The notes beneath the pieces were generated by a model. That model was not told where the DNA came from. It saw nothing but the letters and a program-made list of their open reading frames with translations, and did no database searches. From Akkermansia muciniphila (GTDB taxonomy: Bacteria; Verrucomicrobiota; Kiritimatiellia; RFP12; JAAYNR01): a stretch of DNA of 64,000 nucleotides. This document shows positions 26,565 to 41,291 of this stretch, piece by piece. Location of the stretch: the NCBI GenBank assembly GCA_945870025.1, contig CAMBQN010000014.1, positions 1 to 64,000 on the forward strand, in the 5' to 3' direction. Within the stretch, counting starts at the first letter, position 1. The number at the start of each line of letters is the position of its first letter. The position numbers and the translations under genes were made by a program.

Positions 26565-28460
26565 TTACGGCGTCACGGATGGGAAGAGATTACGGTCCGT
26601 GTGCGGCAGGAAGAGGGCGGCGGTGTATTGGTCCATGTAGGTCGGGTCGGAGCTGAGATCGATGTAGGTCATGCGGCGGGCCAGTACAAGCTGGCGGCGG
26701 TGGTATTCCTGCGAGACCAGTACGATGTAGGAACCCATCAGCGACGAGTTGCCGACGTAGTGGAACTTCTCGCGTGGAAGGTCCGGAACCAAGCCGATGA
26801 CAATGGCTTTCTCGATGTTCAGGAAACGGCCGAACCCACCGCCGATGTAGATGTTGGCCAGGTCGGTGAAGGCGATGCCGGCGTGCTGCAGCAGAAGTGC
26901 GCAGGCGGCGTAGATGGCGGCCTTGGCGCGGATGATATTCTCGATGTCGATCTCGCTGACCTGAATGGCGTGGTCCATGCCGCTTTCGTGCAGGGGGGCC
27001 AGCAGGTAATACGCGTGGCGTCCCTGCACGCGGATGGCGTGTGAGGGGCGCGTGCGGTCCAGCTTGCCGGATGCGTCGATCCAGCCGGTGCGGAGCAGGT
27101 CCGCCAGCAGGGCGATCATGCCAGAGCCGCAGATTCCCTTGGGCTTGCCGCCGCCGATGGTCCAGTAGTGCGGCAGACCGGTGGCGGCATCGACCTCGAC
27201 CCACTCAATGGCGCCAATGGCGGCGCGCATGCCGCATTCGATGCCGGCGCCCTCGAAGGCCGGCCCGGCCGAACAGGCGCAGGTCATCAGGAAATCCCGG
27301 TTGCCGATCACCAGTTCACCGTTGGTGCCGATGTCGATAAAAAGGTTGATCTGTTCGGTCTCCGTGGCAAGATCGGTGCAGAGCATGCCGGCGGTGATGT
27401 CGCCGCCGACATAGCTGCCCACGCAGGGGGAGAAACAGACCCACGACTCGGGGTTGATCTCCAGGCCGACCTCGACGGCGGTCAGGTAGGGTGTTTCGTG
27501 CAATGTGGGCGTATATGGATCCAGCCGGATGTACTCCGGGTTCAGGCCGAGGAGCAGGTGCAGCATGGTGGTGTTGCCGGAGATCACGGCATTGGAGATC
27601 TCGTCCGGGGCAACCGTGTGTTCTTGTGTCACCTGCCGCAGCAGGCGGTTGATCGTGTGGAGCGCACGGGTGCGGAGTTCTTCCAGCCGTTCCGGGCGGC
27701 GTGCATAGTTGATCCGGCTGATCACATCGAGGCCGCAGGCGACCTGCTCGTTGTAGTCGCTGCGCGTGCCGAGAATGGTGGCGGAGGTGAGGTCGACCAG
27801 TTGCACGGCAATGGTGGTGGTGCCCACATCCACGGCGATGCCATAATGGCGTACGGTCTGGTCGCCGGGTTCGACCCGGATCAGGTGAATTTCGTTCGAA
27901 GATCGGATCAGGGTGGTTGTGACGAGGCCCTGTTCAGCGCGCAGTGCATGGGTAAGGACGCGAAGCACGGAGAGCGGCGGCAGCACAGGTTGCGGACCCC
28001 AGTCATGCTGGATGCTGCGCGTCAGGCGGTCGAGATCCGAGAGTCCGTCGCCCAGTTGCGGGAGCGGCACCCGGACGAGCCACTTCATGGCCATGGGCTC
28101 GTACTCCCATTTGCGTGGCAGTAGTTCGCCGCGGACCAGGGCGGTCTCATCGCCGCCGGCGATGCGCATCCCCTCGCGACCGGAGGCCTCGGGGACCTCG
28201 ACAGTCAGCGGCTCGGCGCCCAAGCGCGTGCGACAGGCCAAGACATGGCCAGCCGCCACAGCATCTGCGGAGAGGACGCCCAGGCTGCTGCTGGAGTCCA
28301 CGTGGCCGTCCAGAATGCGCACGAGGCACTTGCCGCAGGTCCCCTTGCCGCCGCACGGTGCGTCAATTTCCACGCCAGCCTGGCGCGCGGCATCCAGCAG
28401 TTCCGTGTTGGACGGAACTTCAATGGATTTGCCGGAGGGACGGAAGGTGATGAGGGGCAT
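26565..28460 (-). CDS. Reductive activator of the corrinoid protein (RACo-like, DUF4445)
   Basis: A 631-residue protein with an N-terminal plant-type [2Fe-2S] ferredoxin domain (Cys at about 36, 42, 45 and 76; motif PCGGKGTCGKC), a linker, and an ASKHA-fold ATPase domain (IAVDVGTTTIAVQLVDL, ISGNTTMLHLLLG, FIDIGTNGELVIGN, GICGSGMIALLADLL, YIGGGFGRFLN). RACo uses ATP to drive electrons onto the cobalt of the corrinoid iron-sulfur protein when it becomes oxidised to Co(II). Its place directly after acsC fits. The ATG at 28460 is chosen over a TTG three codons upstream. The gene is bounded on both sides by heptamer arrays in inverted orientation. Confidence 0.9.
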   Translation of the reverse strand: MPLITFRPSGKSIEVPSNTELLDAARQAGVEIDAPCGGKGTCGKCLVRILDGHVDSSSSLGVLSADAVAAGHVLACRTRLGAEPLTVEVPEASGREGMRIAGGDETALVRGELLPRKWEYEPMAMKWLVRVPLPQLGDGLSDLDRLTRSIQHDWGPQPVLPPLSVLRVLTHALRAEQGLVTTTLIRSSNEIHLIRVEPGDQTVRHYGIAVDVGTTTIAVQLVDLTSATILGTRSDYNEQVACGLDVISRINYARRPERLEELRTRALHTINRLLRQVTQEHTVAPDEISNAVISGNTTMLHLLLGLNPEYIRLDPYTPTLHETPYLTAVEVGLEINPESWVCFSPCVGSYVGGDITAGMLCTDLATETEQINLFIDIGTNGELVIGNRDFLMTCACSAGPAFEGAGIECGMRAAIGAIEWVEVDAATGLPHYWTIGGGKPKGICGSGMIALLADLLRTGWIDASGKLDRTRPSHAIRVQGRHAYYLLAPLHESGMDHAIQVSEIDIENIIRAKAAIYAACALLLQHAGIAFTDLANIYIGGGFGRFLNIEKAIVIGLVPDLPREKFHYVGNSSLMGSYIVLVSQEYHRRQLVLARRMTYIDLSSDPTYMDQYTAALFLPHTDRNLFPSVTP

Positions 28461-28489
28461 AGGCGGCAATCATAGGGTGTTTCAAGCAA

Positions 28490-28528: not shown

Positions 28529-29872
28529 CTACCCCTTCAGCCGCGCCTTGACGAAGCTCTCGATGTCCGCGGCTTCCTGCGGCCCGACCAGGACCTTCCA
28601 GCCGGGGAGTGCCTCCTCGAGTTCGCCGCTGATCTGCGCGACGTAGCCGGGGATGACGATCTGGCGGGTGGTGACCTGCTTCTCGAGGCCGCTTTCCTTG
28701 ACGAACTTGCCGATCATGGCGCCTGAGAACTTGCCGGCTGCCCAGGAGGTGAGCACGCTCATCCCTTCGCATTCCGGCACCACCAGCCACGCGCTGATGC
28801 CGCTGTTCTCGATTTCACCGGAGACGATGAAGTAGGTCAGCGAGAAGTTGGTGGTCACGAATACCGGAGAATCCGCCTTGGGTTCGCCAATGGGGTAGAT
28901 CTTGGGCTCAACCTGGATCGGCTTCTGCGGGTCGGTGTAGACGTTCATCCGCAGGGTCATCAGCGGCGTCAACTGCGCCGGATCGAGCTGCGGCAGCACG
29001 CAGATGCCGCCGTACTTGCAGAAATGTACCGAGGCCTCGGTGGTGCCCGACAGCAGGTCCGTGGTCTCTACGAAGTGCAGGCTCGGGTACCCGAGCGGCT
29101 TGTAGTTGTCCTTGAGTGCCGCGCGCCGCGCGATGGAGTTGGTCTGGAACGCTTCGGCCAGCGAATGAGTTTGGAAGCGGAGAATCAGGTCATTAAAACC
29201 GCCCAGCTTGATCTTCGCGGACAACAACACCAGCTCGTTCAGATCGGGAGCGGTGATGGCCAGCGCGTGGCCGTTCTCTTTGGCCACAGTCACCAGCGTC
29301 TCAGAGGCCTCGGCGCTGGGCGCCACGAGCACACTACCGGAGCCCTTGACTGCGACGGCTGCCGCCGTGATTGCGGCGACGTCGGCGCCGCGCAGAACCA
29401 GAGGGCGCTTGACCGTCTCCCAGGCCTGTTTGCAGGCTGCGGCAAAGGTTGCGGCATCCTGGCTCATCTGCGTCACGGACACCAGGTCAACGATCAGCGT
29501 CTCGCCGACGCGCACGAGCGTGAAGTCGCGAATGGCCTGCAGCGCGGCGGCACGCGCGTCCGGTGCGTCCGTGTCGTTCACGTTGATCGCCAGCGCGGTC
29601 TGGTGGGCAAAGGTCTTCTCGTGGCGGTAGAGGACCGTCTCCGCACCGAGCTTAAGCGTCTTGTCCGCTCCGAGCGCGATCTCCTTCACGGGCGGCTCGC
29701 TGGCGGCACCCAGCACCTGCTTGGCCTCGTCGGAGGCGTACGGGCACTCCGAGAGTTCCGCTTTCTTCGCCGCGAGTTTCATGGCGAACGCGAGGCAGGT
29801 GTTGGACCCGCACTCCTTGCAGTTTGTTTTCGGGAGAAGCTTTTGGATCTGGAGACCTGTCAGAGCTGCCAT
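28529..29872 (-). CDS. acsC: Corrinoid/iron-sulfur protein large subunit
   Basis: The 447-residue gamma subunit of the corrinoid iron-sulfur protein (CFeSP). The N-terminus carries the [4Fe-4S] motif KTNCKECGSNTCLAFAMK with a fourth Cys in SECPY. A TIM-barrel middle and a C-terminal B12-binding domain with SVLTSWAAGKFSGAMIG follow. CFeSP carries the methyl group on cobalt to acetyl-CoA synthase. I place the start at the ATG at 29872 (MAALTGLQIQKLLP), where family homology begins. The frame stays open upstream through the heptamer array for another 26 codons, but this would only add repeat-encoded residues. Its small-subunit partner is fused to AcsB upstream. Confidence 0.93.
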   Translation of the reverse strand: MAALTGLQIQKLLPKTNCKECGSNTCLAFAMKLAAKKAELSECPYASDEAKQVLGAASEPPVKEIALGADKTLKLGAETVLYRHEKTFAHQTALAINVNDTDAPDARAAALQAIRDFTLVRVGETLIVDLVSVTQMSQDAATFAAACKQAWETVKRPLVLRGADVAAITAAAVAVKGSGSVLVAPSAEASETLVTVAKENGHALAITAPDLNELVLLSAKIKLGGFNDLILRFQTHSLAEAFQTNSIARRAALKDNYKPLGYPSLHFVETTDLLSGTTEASVHFCKYGGICVLPQLDPAQLTPLMTLRMNVYTDPQKPIQVEPKIYPIGEPKADSPVFVTTNFSLTYFIVSGEIENSGISAWLVVPECEGMSVLTSWAAGKFSGAMIGKFVKESGLEKQVTTRQIVIPGYVAQISGELEEALPGWKVLVGPQEAADIESFVKARLKG

Positions 29873-29882
29873 AGGGACCTCG

Positions 29883-29938
29883 TTCTTTGTTCTTTGTTCG
29901 TGGTTCTTAGTTCTTAGTTCTTGGTTCGTGGTTCTTGG
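29883..29938. repeat. Heptamer array R3 (TTCTTGG family x8)
   Basis: Eight consecutive 7-base units: TTCTTTG x2, TTCGTGG, TTCTTAG x2, TTCTTGG, TTCGTGG, TTCTTGG. It overlaps the 3' end of the four-helix-bundle gene: its last codons are repeat-encoded (ending EPRTKN) and its stop TAA (29907-29909) comes from a TTCTTAG unit. Confidence 0.95.
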
Positions 29939-30338
29939 TTGCTGGCGCATCGATCGGTGGAGCTGGTTTGCGTCGGTCTTGGGTCAGCAGATACTTGATA
30001 AAGCCACCAATGATAGCGCGAGTAACCTGTGCCTGTTTGTAGATGGCCGTAAATTCATCTTCGGACACGTATTCCTGATCCAAAGCTACATAGAGCGCGC
30101 TTTGAACTTCAGTGCAAGAACGTTGCGCATATCGCAGAAACTTGACGAATTCGGTGTTGCCGCCACTGTCAAACCCCTCGGCGACATTGAGCATGATCGA
30201 GACACACGCGCGCTGCGTCTGATCCTTCAGCCCGAAGTCGTGGCTGAATGGCCCCTTCTTAGTCGCCGCATACGCCATCTTAGCCAGCGCGCGAGCCTGC
30301 TTCCAGCCATCAATATCCTCAAATCGGTTGATTCGCAC
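29907..30338 (-). CDS. Four-helix-bundle protein (S23/IVS, Avd-like family)
   Basis: A 143-residue protein of the PF05635-type four-helix-bundle family: RFEDIDGWKQARALAKMAYAA, FGLKDQTQRACVSIMLNVAEGF and EFVKFLRYAQRSCTEVQSALY are typical. Family members occur as reading frames in 23S rRNA intervening sequences, as Avd in diversity-generating retroelements, and as orphans of unknown role. The start is a GTG at 30338 with AAAGGAG upstream. The last residues (TKNHEPRTKN) are encoded by the heptamer array. It interrupts the acs operon between acsB-D and acsC and is flanked by inverted heptamer arrays, which suggests it came in as a unit. No reverse transcriptase or rRNA is nearby. Confidence 0.85.
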   Translation of the reverse strand: MRINRFEDIDGWKQARALAKMAYAATKKGPFSHDFGLKDQTQRACVSIMLNVAEGFDSGGNTEFVKFLRYAQRSCTEVQSALYVALDQEYVSEDEFTAIYKQAQVTRAIIGGFIKYLLTQDRRKPAPPIDAPATKNHEPRTKN

Positions 30339-33500: not shown

Positions 33501-33982
33501 GCGATCTGCACGGCGATCTCCTTGGTGGGCGCGGCGCCCACAATGGCCGCAAAGCCGGGCGCTGTGCCGTCCACGAACTCGATGCCGCGCTCGCGCATGA
33601 TCACGTCGTTGGCGGCCCCGAGCCAGATGCCGTCCACGGGGTTCGGCCCGATCACGTACTTGCAGGCCTCGATGATTTCGCAGGCGAAGAGCGCGGCTAC
33701 GCCCGCGTCCAGCGTATTGCCGAGGTAGGGAAGCCAGACCTTGGCCGATGGGCGCTGCGGGAGGAGCTGCTTGGCGCGGCGCAGGATATTGCGCATGTCG
33801 CCCAGGGTTGCGACCTTCTCGCCGGTGAGCGAATAGATCACGGGCAGGAAGTAGGCGGTGTTCGGGAAGGCCACCGGCGACGACTCGCCCTTGGCCTGAA
33901 TCGCCTCCGCCAGCTTGGTTTCGGCCTGGGCCACCCAGGCAATGGCTCCGTCAATGGCGCTGCTGCAGATGATCTTAGACAT
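30536..33982 (-). CDS. Acetyl-CoA synthase fused to CFeSP small subunit (AcsB-AcsD)
   Basis: A single 1148-residue frame. Residues 1 to about 725 are full-length bacterial AcsB. The A-cluster ligands are all present: Cys504, 507, 516 and 526 for the [4Fe-4S] cube and the Cys593-Gly-Cys595 motif for nickel, matching the Moorella enzyme with a constant offset of two. Residues of about 830-1148 are AcsD, the TIM-barrel small subunit of CFeSP (KLGATKQEGGTRGRSYTIGG, GNHSV-like GNRSAEQAVAVVKSVLQAV, GYGIEYTYSVMERIRL). The linker of about 105 residues contains two repeat-encoded tracts (NEEPRTKNQES and QEPRTKNEEPGTK) around a helix-like stretch. The AcsD segment should still pair with AcsC. It overlaps acsA by 8 bases. 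A sequencing artefact is unlikely because the frame is continuous and both enzymes are intact. Confidence 0.93.
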   Translation of the reverse strand: MSKIICSSAIDGAIAWVAQAETKLAEAIQAKGESSPVAFPNTAYFLPVIYSLTGEKVATLGDMRNILRRAKQLLPQRPSAKVWLPYLGNTLDAGVAALFACEIIEACKYVIGPNPVDGIWLGAANDVIMRERGIEFVDGTAPGFAAIVGAAPTKEIAVQIARELQQKNLYVFMAGCTNGVQFAEQLAEAGVQLGWETRLVPFGRDVSAAIYALGFANRAALSFGGVKPGDFQANLRYNKDRVFAFVLALGEVTPEKYAAAAGAINYGFPVIADTDIPQILPTGVCTYEHVVSNVPHATMVERALEVRGCKVKITQVPIPVPYGAAFEGERIRKADVQVEFGGNRTTAFEFVTSVALDQINDGDVEVIGPDIDQVPAGTALPLAIWVEVAGRKMQPDFEPILERQIHHLVNGAEGIWHMGQRDIVWTRVSKAGFAKGLRLRHYGDILHAKLLSEYPAIVDKVKVTMVTDAKEVEKRVAVARKVYDERNRRLESMTDESVDIFYSCLLCQSFAPNHVCVITPERLGLCGAYNWLDGKAAYEIDETGPNQPIKKGECLDPVKGIWKGIDDFVYTTSHKAVTSFSAYSLMNNPMTSCGCFEVIVAYVPECNGVMVVNREFQGETPAGMTFSSLAGNVGGGQQTPGFMGCGKVFLTSKKFLFAEGGFKRLVWMPKELKTLLADDLKKRFAEQGAPDLLDQIADETVGADGATIKAFMEKNGHPALQLPDMASYAEAAATPASSEQPAVTTNSQPPTKNEEPRTKNQESPAVTAESLAEMRASIMREVVQSIIGTLSQQFLGVAPAAANIQEPRTKNEEPGTKAPKASERIGAVQAFNIRKEKPECPVWTVKLGATKQEGGTRGRSYTIGGAEAMPFHLWEGALPNRPRVALEVFDIVSEKYPAVLREIYGPVLNNPAAMAKLCVEKYGAELISVRLDGTHPERGNRSAEQAVAVVKSVLQAVDVPLIITGHNHFDRNNEVMKAVAQACAGENLLLNWVEQNNYRTIAGAAIGYGHALVSQAPIDVNIAKQLNILMTNMDVKTGQIVMDPLTGALGYGIEYTYSVMERIRLTGLGGDKMLAGPMIVSPGQECAKVKECKAAEKDFPSWGDLGKRAAQWELTTALGFLHAGADLFIMYHPDAARELKNAIDRMMD
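31537..31571. repeat. Heptamer array R5, in frame inside acsB-D
   Basis: Five units (TTCCTGG, TTCTTCG, then TTCTTGG x3), exactly 35 bases. On the coding strand it reads QEPRTKNEEPGTK and lies between the helical AcsD N-terminal segment and the AcsD core. No stop-forming TTCTTAG unit is present. Confidence 0.93.
31697..31752. repeat. Heptamer array R6, in frame inside acsB-D
   Basis: Five clean units (TTCTTGG x3, TTCTTCG, TTCTTGG; 31697-31731) followed by three decayed ones (TTGGTGG, TTGGCTG, TTGGTTG). It encodes most of the linker between the AcsB C-terminus and AcsD, including NEEPRTKNQES. It has no stop-forming unit. Confidence 0.92.
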
Positions 33983-35924
33983 TGGCTTCTCTCCGGTCCT
34001 TCATATCCAGCAATTTACGCTCGACCTTGCGGTTGATGCCGAGCTTTTCACGTTTCTCTTCCAACAGTTGCAGGCAGCGGGCAGCGGCGTCGGCCGCCGA
34101 GTCGCAGACGTGGAACGACGCGCCGAAGTCTTCCTTCGTGCCAGCGTTCAGGTAGTGGGTCACGTTCTCTGAGCCGCTGATGTAGAACGGGTGGCCGAGG
34201 ATCACGTCCACGCCGGAAGCCACAAAGTAGCAGCCGATGGCAATGGCCTTCTCACTCATCCACTCCGGCGCCACGCCCACGGCCGGCACCTTCGAGAGGT
34301 CGTCGCCGAGGCCGCCCTCGTGGACGATCTCCGTGGCCGCCTCCAGCAGGCGCGAGTTGTCCACGCAACTGCCCATGTGCAGGATGGGCGGGATGCCGAC
34401 GGCCTCGCAAACCTCGCGCAGACCGGCGCCGGCGAACTGCAGCGCGGTCTCCGGTGTGAGCCAGCCGCGCTTGCCCGATGAGATGGCGGAACAGCCGGTC
34501 TTGAGGACCAGAACATTCTGCTTGATCAGCTCGGTCGTGAGGTCGTTGGTGTATTCGTCGCTCTTGGACTTGGGGTTGTTGCAGCCGACAATGCCGACCA
34601 CGCCGCGGATGCGCCCCTGCATGATGGCGTCGTTCAGCGGACGGAACGAAGCGCGGTAGGAGCCGCCCAGCATGTACTTGATGGCCTCCACGCTGAAGCC
34701 GGCGACCATCTGCTCGCTGTGCTTCGGGATGAGGACCTTCTTCGGGTCGCGGTTCTTGTAGTTGTCGATCGCGCGTTTGAGGATGGCCTTGGCGGAACCG
34801 ACGCCGTCGTGCTCGTCGAACCGCATGTGCGCGGCGCCGGTGGTCTGGGCCATGTCTGCGGTCGAGACTACCTCGGTGTGGTAGGACTTGGCAACCAGCG
34901 GCAGGCTGGGCATGCAGCACTGCACGTCCACGACCATCATCTCCACGGCGCCGGTGATGATGGCCAGTTCCTGCTGGAGGAAGTTGCCGGCCACCGGGAT
35001 GCCATGGCGCATCAGGATCTCATTGGCGGTGCAGCAGAGGCCGGCCAGGGTCACGCCTTCCGCGCCTGCGGACTTGGCGTAGGCCTTGATCTCCGGATCA
35101 TCCACCATCACGGCCAGCATGTCCGAGAGTGTCGGATCATGGCCGTGCACGATGATGTTGACGGTCTTCTCGCCGAGCACGCCGAGGTTGGCGGCGCCGC
35201 GGATCGGGGTGGGGGTGCCGAAGAGGATGTCCGATGCGATGGTGCCTATGCGCGCGCCGCCCCAGCCGTCTGCCAGCGAGACGCAGAAGGCGTGGCGCAG
35301 AAGGTTGCGGTAGTCGTGGTCCACACCCATGGTGGTGCGGTGCATGGCCTCGACCACCATGCGGTCCACGCCGAAGGGTACCACGCCGTGCTTCTCCCAG
35401 ATGGCCTGCCGCTTGGTTGGTGCGAGCTGCAGCGTCTTGAGCGGCTCCTCCTGCGAGGTGAACTCGCCCAGGAAGAGGTTGGCCAGGTCGAGGGCCACGG
35501 CTTCCTTGGTGCGGCCGATCTCCTCGATCTGGTAGAGGCGCGCGGAGTAGCGCAGGGCGCGCTCGTCCTTGATCTCGTACCCGCCGCCGTGCCCTTGGGC
35601 CACGTTCCGGAGGAGCAGCACGAGGTGGCGCGCATGGTCGGAATGCGCGGCCGTGCCGCCGCTGACCTCGCGCAGGAAGTTGCGGGCCACGATGGTGTCT
35701 GCGTCTGCGCCGCAGACGCCGCGGGGCGACTTGGGCGTGATCCGGCAGGGTCCCATGTGGCAGATCTTGCAGCAGACGCCCTTGGTGCCGAAGGTGCACT
35801 GGTTCTTCTGCGTGTCCATGCGGCTGAAACAGGTGTCCACGCAGTCGCACCCGGCCTTGTCAATCAAGGCGATGGATGCCGCGTCAACGGCCCGGTCGGT
35901 CGATGTCTTTACTTCATTGGCCAT
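33975..35924 (-). CDS. acsA: Carbon monoxide dehydrogenase catalytic subunit
   Basis: The 649-residue Ni-Fe-S CODH (CooS/AcsA). The N-terminus holds the D- and B-cluster cysteines (Cys43, 51, 52, 55, 60 and 71; motif CCKICHMGPC). The C-cluster ligands are present along the chain: His in IVHGHDPTLSD, Cys in GLCCTANE, VQCCMPSL, GIVGCNNP, KTGCSAIS and MGSCVDN; the conserved acid-base Lys lies in WMSEKAIAIG. It reduces CO2 to CO for acetyl-CoA synthase, or oxidises CO in the reverse direction. The stop overlaps the acsB-D start by 8 bases, so the two are coupled. Length and residues are normal for a functional enzyme. Confidence 0.96.
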   Translation of the reverse strand: MANEVKTSTDRAVDAASIALIDKAGCDCVDTCFSRMDTQKNQCTFGTKGVCCKICHMGPCRITPKSPRGVCGADADTIVARNFLREVSGGTAAHSDHARHLVLLLRNVAQGHGGGYEIKDERALRYSARLYQIEEIGRTKEAVALDLANLFLGEFTSQEEPLKTLQLAPTKRQAIWEKHGVVPFGVDRMVVEAMHRTTMGVDHDYRNLLRHAFCVSLADGWGGARIGTIASDILFGTPTPIRGAANLGVLGEKTVNIIVHGHDPTLSDMLAVMVDDPEIKAYAKSAGAEGVTLAGLCCTANEILMRHGIPVAGNFLQQELAIITGAVEMMVVDVQCCMPSLPLVAKSYHTEVVSTADMAQTTGAAHMRFDEHDGVGSAKAILKRAIDNYKNRDPKKVLIPKHSEQMVAGFSVEAIKYMLGGSYRASFRPLNDAIMQGRIRGVVGIVGCNNPKSKSDEYTNDLTTELIKQNVLVLKTGCSAISSGKRGWLTPETALQFAGAGLREVCEAVGIPPILHMGSCVDNSRLLEAATEIVHEGGLGDDLSKVPAVGVAPEWMSEKAIAIGCYFVASGVDVILGHPFYISGSENVTHYLNAGTKEDFGASFHVCDSAADAAARCLQLLEEKREKLGINRKVERKLLDMKDRREANV

Positions 35925-36030: not shown

Positions 36031-36792
36031 TCAGTCAGTAATCGTCTTCAAAAAACCATCCACGCGTTTCACCAGTTCGTTCTCCGCCGGCAGCTCGGCA
36101 ATCGGGCCTCCACGCTCCCCGAGCGCGGCCACCTCGGCGTTGTCCGGCAGCGCCAGCACATAATCGGCGCCGGTTTCGCGCCGGATGGCGTCGAGTTCGT
36201 CCGGCAGTTGATCGTGGCGCAGGCGGTTGACGACCAACGCCAGCTTGCCGTAGGAGACTTCCATCTCCCGGGCCAGCGCGTGCAGGCGGCGCAGGGTTTC
36301 GAGTCCCCGGCGCGAAGGATCGGCCACCATCACCAGCACATCCACCTTCTGCGACAGGCGGCGGGACAGATTCTCCAATCCGGCTTCGTTGTCAATCACG
36401 ATCCACGGATAATGGTGCGCAATCTTCTCCAGCGCCGTCCGCAGCACGTTGTTCGCGTAGCAGTAACAGCCGGGGCCCTCGGGTCGGCCCATGGCGAGAA
36501 AGTCGAAGTCCGCGCCTTCCACCAGACTCTCCGCGATCTTGATCTCCAGCATTTCCTGCTTGGAGATGCCGGCCCCCATCCCTTTGCCGGCGATGATGCG
36601 CGCCTCTTCGCGGGCGCTGCCGATGGTTTGCTTCAATGAAATGCCGAGCACGGTGTCGAGGCAGGTGTTGGGGTCGGCATCCACCGCCAGCACCGGACGC
36701 CGGTTGCCGGCAATCAGTCGCGAAACCACCAGCCCGGAGACCGTGGTTTTGCCGACGCCGCCTTTTCCTGTGATGGCAATGGTGAAGGACAT
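36031..36792 (-). CDS. cooC: CooC-type nickel-insertion ATPase 1
   Basis: A 253-residue MinD-like P-loop ATPase with deviant Walker A GKGGVGKTT near the N-terminus, the switch DADPNTCLD, and the metal-binding Cys-x-Cys in EGPGCYCYANN (dimer-interface CYC). The VVIDNEAGLENLSRR-like block is typical of CooC/AcsF. These proteins load nickel into the CODH C-cluster, or into ACS. The gene lies immediately upstream of acsA. The 5' gap carries a different heptamer array (TTCAGGT). Confidence 0.9.
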   Translation of the reverse strand: MSFTIAITGKGGVGKTTVSGLVVSRLIAGNRRPVLAVDADPNTCLDTVLGISLKQTIGSAREEARIIAGKGMGAGISKQEMLEIKIAESLVEGADFDFLAMGRPEGPGCYCYANNVLRTALEKIAHHYPWIVIDNEAGLENLSRRLSQKVDVLVMVADPSRRGLETLRRLHALAREMEVSYGKLALVVNRLRHDQLPDELDAIRRETGADYVLALPDNAEVAALGERGGPIAELPAENELVKRVDGFLKTITD

Positions 36793-37057: not shown

Positions 37058-37831
37058 TCATCCTTTCTCCAGCTTGTCCAGAATGTCCTCAAACTTTTGC
37101 AGCAATTCCGGCTGCATGTCATCCAGCACGGAGCGTCCTTCGCGGTCGGCGCCGCGCAGTTGTTCGGTGTAAGGGATCATGCCCAGCAGCTCCTCGTCAC
37201 GGAAGGCCGCCCGCACAAAAGCCTCATCCGCAGGGCTGGTGATTTTGTTCCCCACCACGCGAAATCGGCGCAAGCCGATTTCGGCGCCGAGGGTCTTCAC
37301 GTGGCGTGCGGTTTCGATCGAACGCTGGCCGGGTTCGACCACGATGATCAGGGTGTCCACGCCGTGCGTGGTGCCACGGCCGAGGTGTTCAATCCCCGCC
37401 TCCATGTCCATGACCAGCGCCTCATTGCGATGCAGCACGACGTTGGAAACCAGCGCCTTCAGCAGCACGTTCTCCGGGCAGGCGCAGCCGCCGCCGCCGC
37501 GCGTAACCGCCCCGAGCACCAGCAAGGCCACGCCCGCATGCCGCCAGGCGTAGGCGTCGGCAATGTCGGCGACATCCGGGTTCATCTTGAACATCTGCCC
37601 GAACTTGCCGGCCTGGGCGCCGGTGCGCTCCTCGATCAGGGCGATCTGCCGGGCGATCGGCACGATTCGCTCTCGCACGGCTGCTGGAATTCCCAGCGAG
37701 GCCGCCAGGTTGGCGTCCGGGTCGGCATCCACGGCCAGCACGGTGCGGCCACGCCGCACCAGCAGCAGCGCGAGCGCTGCTGCCAGCGTGGATTTGCCCA
37801 CGCCGCCTTTACCGCTGATGGCGAGTTTCAT
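37058..37831 (-). CDS. cooC: CooC-type nickel-insertion ATPase 2
   Basis: A 257-residue paralogue of cooC1: deviant Walker A GKGGVGKST at residues of about 7-15, DADPDANLAASLG, and the Cys-x-Cys metal site GGGGCACPENVLLKAL. Two CooC-like ATPases beside acsA and acsB suggest one for CODH and one for the A-cluster of ACS, as with the acetogen paralogues CooC and AcsF; which is which cannot be told. The start ATG at 37831 directly abuts heptamer array R7 on the coding strand (…CCAAGAAC then ATG). The frame stays open upstream through the array, adding 47 repeat-like codons that I exclude. Confidence 0.9.
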   Translation of the reverse strand: MKLAISGKGGVGKSTLAAALALLLVRRGRTVLAVDADPDANLAASLGIPAAVRERIVPIARQIALIEERTGAQAGKFGQMFKMNPDVADIADAYAWRHAGVALLVLGAVTRGGGGCACPENVLLKALVSNVVLHRNEALVMDMEAGIEHLGRGTTHGVDTLIIVVEPGQRSIETARHVKTLGAEIGLRRFRVVGNKITSPADEAFVRAAFRDEELLGMIPYTEQLRGADREGRSVLDDMQPELLQKFEDILDKLEKG

Positions 37832-37832
37832 G

Positions 37833-37888
37833 TTCTTGGTTCTTGGTTCTTGGTTCTTGGTTCTTGGTTCGTGGTTCGTGGTTCTTCG
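37833..37888. repeat. Heptamer array R7 (TTCTTGG family x8)
   Basis: Eight units: TTCTTGG x5, TTCGTGG x2, TTCTTCG. It begins one base after the cooC2 start codon. Its inverted partner is R7b at 37948, with a 59-base spacer containing a GC-rich imperfect palindrome (GCGGCTCGTGAGGCCGC). Confidence 0.95.
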
Positions 37889-37947
37889 TTGCGGCTCGTG
37901 AGGCCGCTCGCCCTCCAGGTTGGAGCGTATGCGGCTGGCGACAGCAA

Positions 37948-37975
37948 CCAAGAACGACGAACAAAGAACCACGAA
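37948..37975. repeat. Heptamer array R7b (CCAAGAA family x4)
   Basis: Four units: CCAAGAA, CGACGAA, CAAAGAA, CCACGAA. It lies directly after the zinc-ribbon gene stop, in inverted orientation to R7. Confidence 0.9.
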
Positions 37976-37981
37976 CGATTC

Positions 37982-38218
37982 CTATTGCTTATCCTTCTTC
38001 ACTTCCCGTCCGAGACATTTCTCCGCTTCCTTGCACCATTTCGCACAGGCCAGATCCAGGCGCGGGTTGCGCACCTCACGCTTACAGCCGGCGCAGATCC
38101 GCACAGGTTCGTCCTTCCAGAACTCGATCTCTGCGCCGCACTGCGGGCAGGCGACCTGAAAGATATCTTCCGGTCTCCAGTAGCGCTGATCCTGGCCTGG
38201 GCAATGGACGTCGCTCAT
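37982..38218 (-). CDS. Small cysteine-rich zinc-ribbon protein
   Basis: A 78-residue protein that starts CPGQDQRYWRPEDIF and has two CxxC pairs (ACPQCGAE and ICAGCKRE) followed by DLACAKWCKEAEKCLG, eight or more cysteines in all. I recall this pattern, with a CPGQD start and a final CAxWCxxAExCLG, from proteins encoded near CODH/ACS and corrinoid genes, sometimes joined to a phosphohydrolase domain. Binding of zinc or an Fe-S cluster is likely; the role is unknown. The ATG at 38218 is chosen because upstream codons are repeat-derived. Confidence 0.7.
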   Translation of the reverse strand: MSDVHCPGQDQRYWRPEDIFQVACPQCGAEIEFWKDEPVRICAGCKREVRNPRLDLACAKWCKEAEKCLGREVKKDKQ

Positions 38219-38237
38219 GAAACATCCCCGTTTGTCG

Positions 38238-38265
38238 TTCTTGGTTCCTCGTTCTTGGTTCTTTG
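38238..38265. repeat. Heptamer array R8 (TTCTTGG family x4)
   Basis: Units TTCTTGG, TTCCTCG, TTCTTGG, TTCTTTG. It forms an inverted pair with R8b (38294-38321) across a 28-base spacer that itself begins TTGG and ends CCAA, so about 84 bases could form one long hairpin. Confidence 0.93.
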
Positions 38266-38293
38266 TTGGAGCGATGCGCGTATCCGTTGCCAA

Positions 38294-38321
38294 CCAAGAA
38301 CGAAGAACCAAGAACGAAGAA
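38294..38321. repeat. Heptamer array R8b (CCAAGAA/CGAAGAA x4)
   Basis: Units CCAAGAA, CGAAGAA, CCAAGAA, CGAAGAA in alternation. Inverted partner of R8, next to the methyltransferase gene stop. Confidence 0.93.
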
Positions 38322-38336
38322 CGATGCCGTCCGATC

Positions 38337-39398
38337 TCAGAACTTGTACGTGGCCTTCATCGCCTTCGACAGGGCGCTGAGGGACTCGAAAACCTTCATC
38401 GCGTCTGCCGGGTCCAGCGAGCCGGTGCCGCACGAGGGGGTGATGAGCGCCTGAGCGGCGATCTGCTGCCGGTCGATCCCCGTGGCAGCCAGGTGCTGCA
38501 TTCCCTGCTCGAGCTTGGCGGCGAGCGACTCGACCGTCTGCTCCCGGATGATCGAGGAGGTCGGCACTACGCCCCAGGCCAAGAGTCCGCCTTTGTTCAG
38601 ATGGGCCTTGACGCTGGCGGCGTACATGGCAATGGTTTCGCCGAAGCCGAAGGCATCGAAGTTCACGATGTCCACGCCAGCATCGATCAGGATGCTCCAC
38701 TCGGTGTTGCCGCAGCAATGCACGCCTGCGAGCGCGCCGTCGGCGTGGATCGCCTCGACGACCTCGTTGACGCGCGCCACGACGTCTTCGCGCTTGACCG
38801 ATACGTAGGTCGAGCTGCCGAAAGCCGAGAGGATCGGCTCGTCAATGAAGCAGATCACGCGCTCCGCATAGGGGCGGAACTTCTGGATCTGCCAGCGGCA
38901 CTTCATGGCCAGAGCCTTGACGATCATGTCGAGAAATTCCTCGTTGTAGTAGATGGCGCGTTTGTTCTCGTCCACGAGTGTGAGCGCGAAGCTGCACGGG
39001 CCGGTGGTCTGCACCTTGACGGCTGGGAGTTTGCGTCCCAGAGCCTTCAGCTTCTTCTCGAGCGCCGGGATGCCGCGGGAGAATTCGGGACCGATCGCCA
39101 GGGCAGAGCAGTCGCCGGTCTCGGTCGAGGTCATGTACTTCTCGTAGAACTGCGCGAAGGCATCCGAGTAGTCCTGGTTGGTCTGGAAGAACATGCGCTG
39201 CTTTTCGCGGTCGATCACCGCACAGGGCATCCCCTCGGAGTACTGGATCTCCATCTGCTCGTTCATGCCGAACTTCGGCAGTTGTGGCCAGATCGGCGCC
39301 TCGGAGAGGTGCTTCAGCGAAACATCTACGGCATAGTCGGCATTGTCAAACGGCATGCTGCCAATGGCAGTGGCCATGAATTTGGGTTGGAAGGACAT
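38337..39398 (-). CDS. MetE/UroD-like cobalamin methyltransferase
   Basis: A 353-residue single-domain protein of the MetE C-terminal / UroD superfamily (ATAIGSMPF start, then QTTGPCSFALTL, ICFIDEPILSAFGSSTY, GVHCCGNTEWSILIDAGVD and PSCGTGSL). The His-Cys of GVHCCGN and the Cys of PSCGTG are the expected zinc ligands that activate a thiol or accept a methyl group. It is far too short for methionine synthase MetE, which has two barrels. Similar genes accompany CODH/ACS clusters. It may move methyl groups between CFeSP-type corrinoid and another carrier. The start at 39398 follows GAGGAACGAACG, a ribosome-site-like stretch supplied by the heptamer array. Confidence 0.78.
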   Translation of the reverse strand: MSFQPKFMATAIGSMPFDNADYAVDVSLKHLSEAPIWPQLPKFGMNEQMEIQYSEGMPCAVIDREKQRMFFQTNQDYSDAFAQFYEKYMTSTETGDCSALAIGPEFSRGIPALEKKLKALGRKLPAVKVQTTGPCSFALTLVDENKRAIYYNEEFLDMIVKALAMKCRWQIQKFRPYAERVICFIDEPILSAFGSSTYVSVKREDVVARVNEVVEAIHADGALAGVHCCGNTEWSILIDAGVDIVNFDAFGFGETIAMYAASVKAHLNKGGLLAWGVVPTSSIIREQTVESLAAKLEQGMQHLAATGIDRQQIAAQALITPSCGTGSLDPADAMKVFESLSALSKAMKATYKF

Positions 39399-39404
39399 CG
39401 TTCG

Positions 39405-39467
39405 TTCCTCGTTCTTCGTTCGTAGTTCTTGGTTTTTAGTTCTTGGTGCCGCGTTCTTGGTTTCTGG
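39405..39467. repeat. Heptamer array R9 (degenerate TTCTTGG family x9)
   Basis: Nine units in register, several decayed: TTCCTCG, TTCTTCG, TTCGTAG, TTCTTGG, TTTTTAG, TTCTTGG, TGCCGCG, TTCTTGG, TTTCTGG. It lies just upstream of the methyltransferase start. Inverted partner R9b is at 39512. Confidence 0.88.
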
Positions 39468-39511
39468 TTAAGAGGCTGCCGCGTGATTTCGTGTGCTGAG
39501 CATTCTCCCAA

Positions 39512-39539
39512 CCAAGAACCAAGAACGAAGAACCAAGAA
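39512..39539. repeat. Heptamer array R9b (CCAAGAA x4)
   Basis: Units CCAAGAA, CCAAGAA, CGAAGAA, CCAAGAA directly after the homocysteine methyltransferase-like stop, inverted to R9 across 44 bases. Confidence 0.93.
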
Positions 39540-39552
39540 CGAACATTTACTT

Positions 39553-40449
39553 CTACTTCTTCAGCCCATCCACCGCCTTGCGGATGGCGTTGATGTGGGC
39601 GGGCGTGGTGCCGCAGCAGCCGCCGATGATGTTTGCGCCGGCAGCGACCAGCGCCGGGACCAGCTTGGCCATGTCTGCCGGAGTGTCCGGGAAGATGTCC
39701 GCGCCGTTCACGCTCTTCGGCAGGCCGGCGTTGGCATGCACGAGGATCGGCGTGGTCGGGGTGGCCTCGCGCATTTCGCGCACAATCTCGATCATGCGTT
39801 CCATGCCATTGCCGCAGTTGGTGCCGATGACATGCGCGCCAGCCTCGACCAGGGCCCTAGCCGCATCGGCCGGAGAGACGCCCATCATGGTGCGGTATTC
39901 ATCCTTCGTGTTCTTCTCAAAGGTGAAGGTGCAGATGACCTCGCAGGAGGTGTGTTTGCGGGCAGCCTGAACGGCCAGAACAGCTTCGTCAATGGCGCTC
40001 ATGGTCTCGATGCAGAGCGCATCCGCGCCGCCCTTGGCCAGCGCCACGGACTGCTCCCGGAAGGATTCGAAGATCTGCTCCTCGCTGACGTCGCCCAAAG
40101 CCAGCATCTGGCCGGTGGGGCCGACTGAGGCGATTACCCACTTGTCGGGACCGGCGGCCTGACGGGAGATCCGGGCCGCGGCTTCGTTGATCGCGGCGAC
40201 GCGGCCTTCCAAACCAAAGTGCTTCAGCTTGAAGGAGGTGCCACCAAAGCTGTCGCTTTCAATCATGTCCGCGCCAGCCTGAATGTAGCTGCGGCCGATG
40301 TCCTCCACGTCCGCGGCGTGCTCGATGTTCCAGAGTTCCGGACATTCGCCCGGCTTCATCCCCTTCTTCTGCAGGAAGGTGCCCCAGGCGCCGTCCGACA
40401 CCAGAATGCGGCCACTCTTGATGGCTGCGACGATCTTCTGTTTTGCCAT
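39553..40449 (-). CDS. Homocysteine S-methyltransferase-domain protein
   Basis: A 298-residue protein equal to the N-terminal (homocysteine-binding) barrel of cobalamin-dependent methionine synthase MetH. It has ILVSDGAWGTFLQ, ESDSFGGTSFKL, the first zinc Cys in GTNCGNG and the paired cysteines in GGCCGTTPAHI. It can therefore activate a thiol as methyl acceptor. Free-standing MetH-type domains occur in CODH/ACS and methylotrophic loci, where they work with a corrinoid protein. With no acsE in the window, it and the MetE-like protein are the visible methyltransfer candidates. The start has AAGGAG nine bases upstream. It is not repeat-associated at its 5' end. Confidence 0.85.
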   Translation of the reverse strand: MAKQKIVAAIKSGRILVSDGAWGTFLQKKGMKPGECPELWNIEHAADVEDIGRSYIQAGADMIESDSFGGTSFKLKHFGLEGRVAAINEAAARISRQAAGPDKWVIASVGPTGQMLALGDVSEEQIFESFREQSVALAKGGADALCIETMSAIDEAVLAVQAARKHTSCEVICTFTFEKNTKDEYRTMMGVSPADAARALVEAGAHVIGTNCGNGMERMIEIVREMREATPTTPILVHANAGLPKSVNGADIFPDTPADMAKLVPALVAAGANIIGGCCGTTPAHINAIRKAVDGLKK

Positions 40450-40547: not shown

Positions 40548-41291
40548 TCACGATTGGGTCTGCTGCAATCCTTTTTCCAAAAATTCGTACCAAGCATCCA
40601 TGCCAGCGCCGGTGGCGGTCGCGACTTCCAAAATCTGCGCGTCCGGTGCCACCCGAGCAACATTGGCACGCGCCTTGATTCGGTCGAAGCCAGAAACCGC
40701 CGCTGGGGCAGTGTCATGGATCACCACCGCCGACGCGTCCTTGAAAATAAAAGGGAATTTTAGCGGTTTACTCTCGCCATTGGCAAGCGAAAAAAGCGCC
40801 ACGCGCACGGTTTCGCCAAGGTCATACACAGACTGGGCTGCGGCGCTGCCGCCATTTTCCAGCAGGACGATCTCGGTCGTGTCCAGATCCAGGTGGTTAA
40901 GCGCATGGGCGATTCCGTGGGCATCCAATGAAACATTCTCGTTGTCCAGTGCTGGGCTGTCGCCGTGTGCGTGGCCGTCGTGGTCATGATGGGCGTGGAT
41001 CTGATCTAGAAATTCGCTCGTGACGACGCGGAGTTTCCTCCGTAGACCATATTCGGCCACGGTGCGGTCGACCAAGGATCGCACACCGGACCCGGCGAAC
41101 GAGAGGAGATTGACCACAAAGACGCGCTTGGCAATGAAAAATCCGCGATTTCGCTCGGCCAGACGGTCGTGGCGGGAGAGCTCCGCCGCCTCGGGTTCGT
41201 GGATGTGTGCGCGGGGCGCGGCATGCGCATGCGCCAACGTGTGGCCACGCTGCCGTAAGGTGGGATCCGAACATCCGCATTTTTCGCACAT
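40548..41291 (-). CDS. HypB-like nickel protein with a degenerate GTPase
   Basis: A 247-residue homologue of HypB, the GTPase that supplies nickel to hydrogenase. The N-terminal nickel motif MCEKCGC is intact, and His-rich stretches follow (HTLAHAHAAPRAHIH, then HAHHDHDGHAHG). The family frame is clear (SLDAHGIAHALNHLDLD, VYDLGETVRVALFSLANGE, KPLKFPFIFKDA, TGAGMDAWYEFL). Yet the P-loop is GSGVRS (residues 67-72) where GxGKT is required, the specificity motif N/TKxD is replaced by IHDT (191-194), and the G-domain metal ligands (CH before LDAH and the Cys of GNLVC) are lost. It probably binds or stores nickel for CODH/ACS without hydrolysing GTP. It is the first gene of the acs locus. Confidence 0.85.
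   Translation of the reverse strand: MCEKCGCSDPTLRQRGHTLAHAHAAPRAHIHEPEAAELSRHDRLAERNRGFFIAKRVFVVNLLSFAGSGVRSLVDRTVAEYGLRRKLRVVTSEFLDQIHAHHDHDGHAHGDSPALDNENVSLDAHGIAHALNHLDLDTTEIVLLENGGSAAAQSVYDLGETVRVALFSLANGESKPLKFPFIFKDASAVVIHDTAPAAVSGFDRIKARANVARVAPDAQILEVATATGAGMDAWYEFLEKGLQQTQS

Follow-up and report, generated by a model that had tools for sequence, protein, structure and literature searches.

The maturation of nickel enzymes depends on described accessory proteins of several kinds. The CxxCGC motif of E. coli HypB is a nickel site with a sub-picomolar Kd; HypBs rich in His can take up several nickel ions, and nickel storage is the role assumed for them (PMC7055735). HypA docks to A. 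fulgidus and E. coli HypB through two hydrophobic HypB residues (PMC3287977). For carbon monoxide dehydrogenase (CODH), CooC inserts nickel using ATP (PMC9164220), and CooJ is a small protein with 16 C-terminal histidines that binds four nickel ions per monomer (PMC6006190). A hypB gene lies inside the CODH operon of Citrobacter amalonaticus Y19, and the participation of HypA/HypB in CODH maturation has been stated to be undemonstrated (PMC6006190).

Here we analysed a HypB homologue, referred to as pseudo-HypB, encoded in a 64,000-nucleotide stretch of DNA (the window). The protein resembles HypB (TIGR00073) in whole-length homology, fold, N-terminal CxxCxC motif, His tract and KPLK lysine. 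It differs in the lack of the P-loop, switch I, G3, G4, the CHxnC site and the HypA-docking pair, in its location in a CODH/ACS operon, and in a His-rich loop that replaces switch I. Like the His-rich "nickelin" HypBs of Bradyrhizobium japonicum and Rhizobium leguminosarum, it is His-rich and can presumably bind several nickel ions; whereas those proteins keep the GTPase and serve hydrogenase, pseudo-HypB would represent the storage half only. It shares with CooJ, the CODH nickel accessory protein of Rhodospirillum rubrum, the character of a His-rich protein in a CODH operon beside CooC and, as proposed below, a role as nickel reservoir. CooJ, however, is small with a C-terminal His tail, and is set apart by its description as having, as far as known, an unrelated fold; given the homology with HypB, homology of pseudo-HypB with CooJ is very unlikely. 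The HypB of C. amalonaticus Y19, likewise encoded in a CODH operon, accompanies CooC, CooT and CooJ; a literature search for GTPase loss in it found nothing. CooC has the P-loop NTPase fold, the same operon and the same target as pseudo-HypB, but it keeps a deviant Walker A motif and uses ATP, whereas pseudo-HypB has no recognisable NTP site.

Identification and structural homology of pseudo-HypB

The reading frame of pseudo-HypB (Table 1) was intact and open from its ATG through all 247 residues. The protein passed the NCBIfam hypB cut-off (129.1 versus 121.2 bits), gave no match in Pfam at E<=0.001, and detected the HypB structures 2wsm, 2hf8 and 4lps in a phmmer search; the homology spanned its whole length. 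An AF2 model built from an input alignment of just four sequences (mean pLDDT 66, pTM 0.68) superposed on 2hf8 with a Z of 20.6 and an rmsd of 2.5 over 187 aligned residues. The pLDDT was below 50 in the N-terminal 38 residues and in residues 103–121, and these segments are therefore probably flexible. The NCBIfam hypB model would name this protein a hydrogenase maturation GTPase, which would lead to false predictions of hydrogenase.

Table 1. Positions of pseudo-HypB, its motifs, the operon genes and related loci in other contigs
Feature	Position	Strand	Remarks
Pseudo-HypB gene	40548..41291	(-)	247 aa, first gene of CODH/ACS operon
N-terminal CEKCGC, residues 2-7	41271..41288	(-)	three Cys kept 4/4
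First His-rich tract, residues 17-31	41199..41243	(-)	HypA-docking pair (31/33) missing
Degenerate P-loop/G1 SFAGSGVR, residues 64-71	41079..41102	(-)	catalytic Lys and Thr gone
His-rich loop in place of switch I/G2, residues 92-111, SEFLDQIHAHHDHDGHAHGD	40959..41018	(-)	partly low pLDDT
Missing metal site VSLDA, residues 120-124	40920..40934	(-)	CHLDA in canonical HypB
Degenerate G3 and missing second metal Cys, ENGGSAAAQ, residues 145-153	40833..40859	(-)	canonical ENVGNLVCP
Lys178 in KPLKFP	40758..40760	(-)	dimer-interface lysine equivalent, kept 4/4
Degenerate G4 IHDT, residues 191-194	40710..40721	(-)	canonical [NT]KxD
Homocysteine S-methyltransferase-type protein, second gene	39553..40449	(-)	family match
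Methionine synthase (MetE-C)/UroD-like protein, third gene	38337..39398	(-)	weak family match; in 6/6 operons
Small protein, two Cys pairs (CPxC, CxxC)	37982..38311	(-)	no family match
CooC-type ATPase 1, KGGVGKS, CAC motif	37058..37972	(-)	likely start near 37837
CooC-type ATPase 2, KGGVGKT, CYC motif	36031..36792	(-)	motif and family match
CooS, Ni carbon monoxide dehydrogenase catalytic subunit	33975..35924	(-)	614 bits, cut-off 478
AcsB-AcsD fusion (acetyl-CoA synthase and corrinoid protein small subunit), 1148 aa	30536..33982	(-)	family matches
AcsC, corrinoid Fe-S protein large subunit	28529..29950	(-)	family match
AcsV, corrinoid reactivation protein	26565..28469	(-)	family match
His-tailed small protein (MCDGM... 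/ MCNGL...)	L177:15375-15608, L198:9957-10184		G172 and G185; no family match
HypC domain (MCYAIPG) fused to HydE-like radical SAM enzyme	L186:9068-10393 (G000:C2 about 143067-144389)		
Small subunit-GNAT fusion	L186:6011-6916, L187:1433-2338, L188:10665-11570		three genomes

Comparison of sequence motifs with canonical HypBs

The four known pseudo-HypBs were compared with 103 canonical HypBs. The P-loop G1 motif GxGK[TS], the switch I motif GDxxTxxD, in which the Asp pairs with the dimer Lys, and the G3 motif ENVGNLVC were each present in 103/103 canonical HypBs and in 0/4 members of the clade, a contrast well beyond chance; in the window protein, SFAGSGVR stood in place of the canonical S(S/A)PGxGKT. 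The G4 motif [NT]KxD (102/103 canonical HypBs), the CH pair of the G-domain CHxnC metal site (96/103) and the hydrophobic HypA-docking pair (89/103) were likewise found in 0/4, the docking pair being expected at residues 31 and 33 of the window protein. The second Cys of the CHxnC site was present within the clade in two members only, those of genomes G024 and G065.

In contrast to these losses, MCxxCGC was present in 4/4 clade members, as MCEKCGC at residues 1–7 of the window protein. A His-rich stretch at the position of switch I was also found in 4/4, with two invariant His residues; the second His tract of the window protein covered residues 99–109. The window protein contained 16 His residues versus a mean of 14 in canonical HypBs, and His-rich N-termini are common among canonical HypBs too, so the His tract alone is not diagnostic. 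The counterparts of Lys178, Lys148 in A. fulgidus and Lys224 in E. coli, lie at the dimer interface (PMC3262836). The preliminary description of this locus had stated that the MCEKCGC motif, the His-rich tracts and the fold-defining segments were kept, and that the P-loop lysine, the NKxD motif and the G-domain metal Cys/His were destroyed. Both lists held when the clade was compared with canonical HypBs and the model with 2hf8, and the loss of switch I is an addition to the second.

Phylogeny, distribution and selection

The same form of the protein was found in four Kiritimatiellae genomes of four families and two orders: G000, from which the window derives, G008 and G024, which belong to the same order, and G065, from another order of the class. 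An alignment with HypB families, a check proposed earlier, placed these four proteins in one clade on a long stem (SH-aLRT 100, stem 1.53), and the tree did not tie the origin of the clade to any one group of canonical HypBs. Search scores were at least 318 bits for clade members and 239 bits for the next sequence, the best canonical HypB. No intermediate form occurred among the matches in 345 genomes of the class and 387 of the phylum, no further clade member was present among the 387 phylum genomes, and a scan of viral contigs gave no relative. These searches sampled Verrucomicrobiota, with poor coverage outside it. When 84,980 species genomes were scanned for the pattern, G065 was absent among the matches listed, so clade members may exist elsewhere.

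The other clade members showed 54–58% identity with the window protein, and all frames were open. The pN/pS of pseudo-HypB was 0.41–0.47 (six pairs) versus 0.10–0.30 for three operon neighbours, ratios that are rough because synonymous sites were near saturation. Judged from these values, pseudo-HypB is under purifying selection. Its constraint looks looser than that of the neighbours, which counts against the explanation that we favour below. All four known members apparently come from metagenome-assembled genomes. The genomes are draft assemblies of 81–97% completeness, so absences of HypB, HypD and HypA are probable rather than certain. The genome that contains the window (81% complete) showed no normal HypB elsewhere.

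Organization of the CODH/ACS operon

In all four genomes, the CODH/ACS operon began with pseudo-HypB. The gene order was common to the window, G008 and G065 as far as the contigs extend, and the operon of G024 lay on two contigs. The two adjoining CooC ATPases claimed in the preliminary description are real. CODH scored over the cut-off in 21 of the 345 class genomes, and all four pseudo-HypB genomes were among the 21; the hypergeometric chance of this is ~1e-5, a value to be read with the shared operon in mind, since the four co-occurrences are not independent events. Both CODH and HypB were absent from G001, a 95% complete genome of the same genus as the window's, and this patchy occurrence of the operon suggests horizontal transfer.

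Several other features of the operon were observed. The homocysteine methyltransferase-type and MetE/UroD-like genes (38337–40449) were fixed in 6/6 operons of this type; their products perhaps bring methyl groups to the corrinoid protein by another route, or divert them to methionine. The small CPxC/CxxC protein was encoded in most operons of the type, and distant matches to it adjoined CODH in G343 and G323. The AcsB-AcsD fusion also occurred in G008, G172 and G185, and other class genomes had separate AcsB and AcsD; in G065 a frameshift, which may be an assembly error, broke the fusion. None of the open-access papers listed described such a fusion by title or abstract, which is weak evidence of absence.

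Replacement of pseudo-HypB by a His-tailed protein

Two further genomes, G172 and G185, had the same type of operon, with AcsB 81–82% identical to that of the window and likewise fused to AcsD, in proteins of 1149 and 1150 aa. Searches for HypB in these two genomes found none. The gene preceding the homocysteine methyltransferase encoded a 77-aa protein with a short N-terminal part and a His-rich tail, non-homologous to pseudo-HypB. Among the 21 genomes searched, this protein was found in G172 and G185 only, and the four pseudo-HypB genomes were without it. Thus a His-rich protein stood directly before the methyltransferase in 6/6 operons of the type, and was of two unrelated kinds. A search of PDB sequences with the 77-aa protein gave only weak matches driven by the His tail, which establish no homology to a solved structure; in architecture, small and with the His tail at the C-terminus, it resembles CooJ. 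No other observation supports a reservoir role as strongly as this reciprocal swap, from which a reservoir would seem to be what CODH/ACS requires.

Possible function of pseudo-HypB

From these comparisons, we consider it probable that pseudo-HypB is a pseudo-GTPase that kept the HypB fold, lost GTP binding and hydrolysis, and moved from the maturation of [NiFe]-hydrogenase to that of CODH/ACS as a nickel store or carrier. This role, proposed in the preliminary description, gained support from the lost HypA-docking pair, the His loop and the swap in the operon slot, with nickel binding itself read from the motifs. Ni(II) would be bound, and thereby stored or carried, by the CxxCxC motif together with both His-rich segments. 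From there nickel would reach the adjoining CooC ATPases, or go directly to apo-CODH/ACS, with no GTP switch involved, and ATP hydrolysis by CooC would drive its insertion. Under such a division of function, pseudo-HypB would hold nickel and CooC would supply energy, so that pseudo-HypB would do the job of CooJ from an unrelated fold; the client site may be the C-cluster of CODH or the A-cluster of ACS. A store protein is dispensable for the maturation of some CODHs, which counts against a store or carrier. We lean slightly towards a more specific form of the proposal, a nucleotide-free nickel carrier evolved from a G3E GTPase, in which a His loop took the place of switch I and GTP-driven release was ceded to CooC, and whose slot may alternatively hold an unrelated His-tailed peptide. 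The open-access literature yielded no description of a nickel chaperone that is a pseudo-GTPase, an absence that is weak evidence. If pseudo-HypB acts as proposed, nickel holding and GTP-gated release, two activities of HypB, have been separated by the natural loss of one. A HypB descendant that is fixed in a CODH/ACS operon and no longer has what service to hydrogenase requires would also make the question of HypA/HypB in CODH maturation directly testable.

A dead G domain could instead work as a scaffold or regulator that docks CooC or apo-CODH/ACS, or that senses nickel and gates CooC, its metal sites being regulatory only. The fold and the dimer lysine were kept despite the loss of the nucleotide site, and many pseudo-enzymes are allosteric partners. 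In addition, the P-loop NTPase fold and dimer logic are common to CooC and HypB (PMC9164220). However, the substitute in G172 and G185 has no G domain, the His tail being preceded only by a short N-terminal stretch, which fits a metal reservoir better, and we regard a scaffold or regulator as unlikely.

The metal handled might also be other than nickel. The operon encodes methyltransferase-type and corrinoid proteins as well, which could be clients for zinc and cobalt, respectively. His-rich segments bind several divalent metals, but the CxxCxC motif corresponds to the sub-picomolar nickel site of E. coli HypB (PMC7055735). Since CODH and ACS are both nickel enzymes and the substitute protein is CooJ-like in architecture, another metal seems very improbable.

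It is very doubtful, too, that pseudo-HypB still hydrolyses GTP or ATP at an unrecognised nucleotide site. Part of the G5 region (ATGAGM) was conserved, A. fulgidus HypB binds GTP via a non-canonical G4 motif (PMC3262836), and ATPase-type HypBs exist (PMC9164220). Against this, the P-loop Lys and Thr, the switch I Asp, G3 and G4 were jointly lost in 4/4 members.

Service to a [NiFe]-hydrogenase had to be considered for the window's genome, which encodes a complex-I-like large subunit with all four Cys present (RICGICS, DPCISCTER) as well as a HypA-like protein whose N-terminus carries MHE. However, this hydrogenase cluster also occurs in G172 and G185, where no HypB was found, and neither HypA nor HypD accompanies pseudo-HypB in the draft genomes of G008 and G024, suggesting that hydrogenase is not the common client. 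HypD was also missing in G000; G065 has HypD and HypA. The four genomes are 81–94% complete. Besides the loss of the HypA-docking pair, pseudo-HypB never adjoins a hydrogenase. The complex-I-like hydrogenase was therefore rejected as the client on distribution, and its candidacy is highly improbable: pseudo-HypB appears to follow CODH/ACS, not hydrogenase.

That pseudo-HypB is a decaying remnant left after hydrogenase loss, as its faster evolution than its neighbours and the lack of HypD in 3/4 genomes might suggest, is scarcely credible and was rejected on clade, selection and synteny, because four open orthologues under purifying selection retain conserved Cys/His residues and a fixed operon place rather than occurring as the isolated decaying gene considered in the preliminary description, and because G065 retains pseudo-HypB in addition to two normal HypBs, whose contigs each carry a HypA gene.

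Fusion proteins associated with the complex-I-like hydrogenase

A HypC domain fused to a HydE-like radical SAM enzyme was found in G000 (Table 1) and also in G162, G165, G172, G173, G185 and G064, the full-length fusion occurring in 7/345 class genomes. In G000, G172 and G185 it adjoined the HypA-like gene and the complex-I-like [NiFe] large subunit, which has all four Cys in these genomes. HypD was missing in 7/7 genomes with the fusion, and HypF in 3/3 tested. The fusion is possibly part of a HypD/E/F-free route to the NiFe(CN)2CO site, the searches having covered HypD and HypF. No paper on it was found in the open-access literature, an absence that is weak evidence. The hydrogenase/complex-I small subunit was fused to a GNAT acetyltransferase domain, and this fusion was conserved in three genomes.
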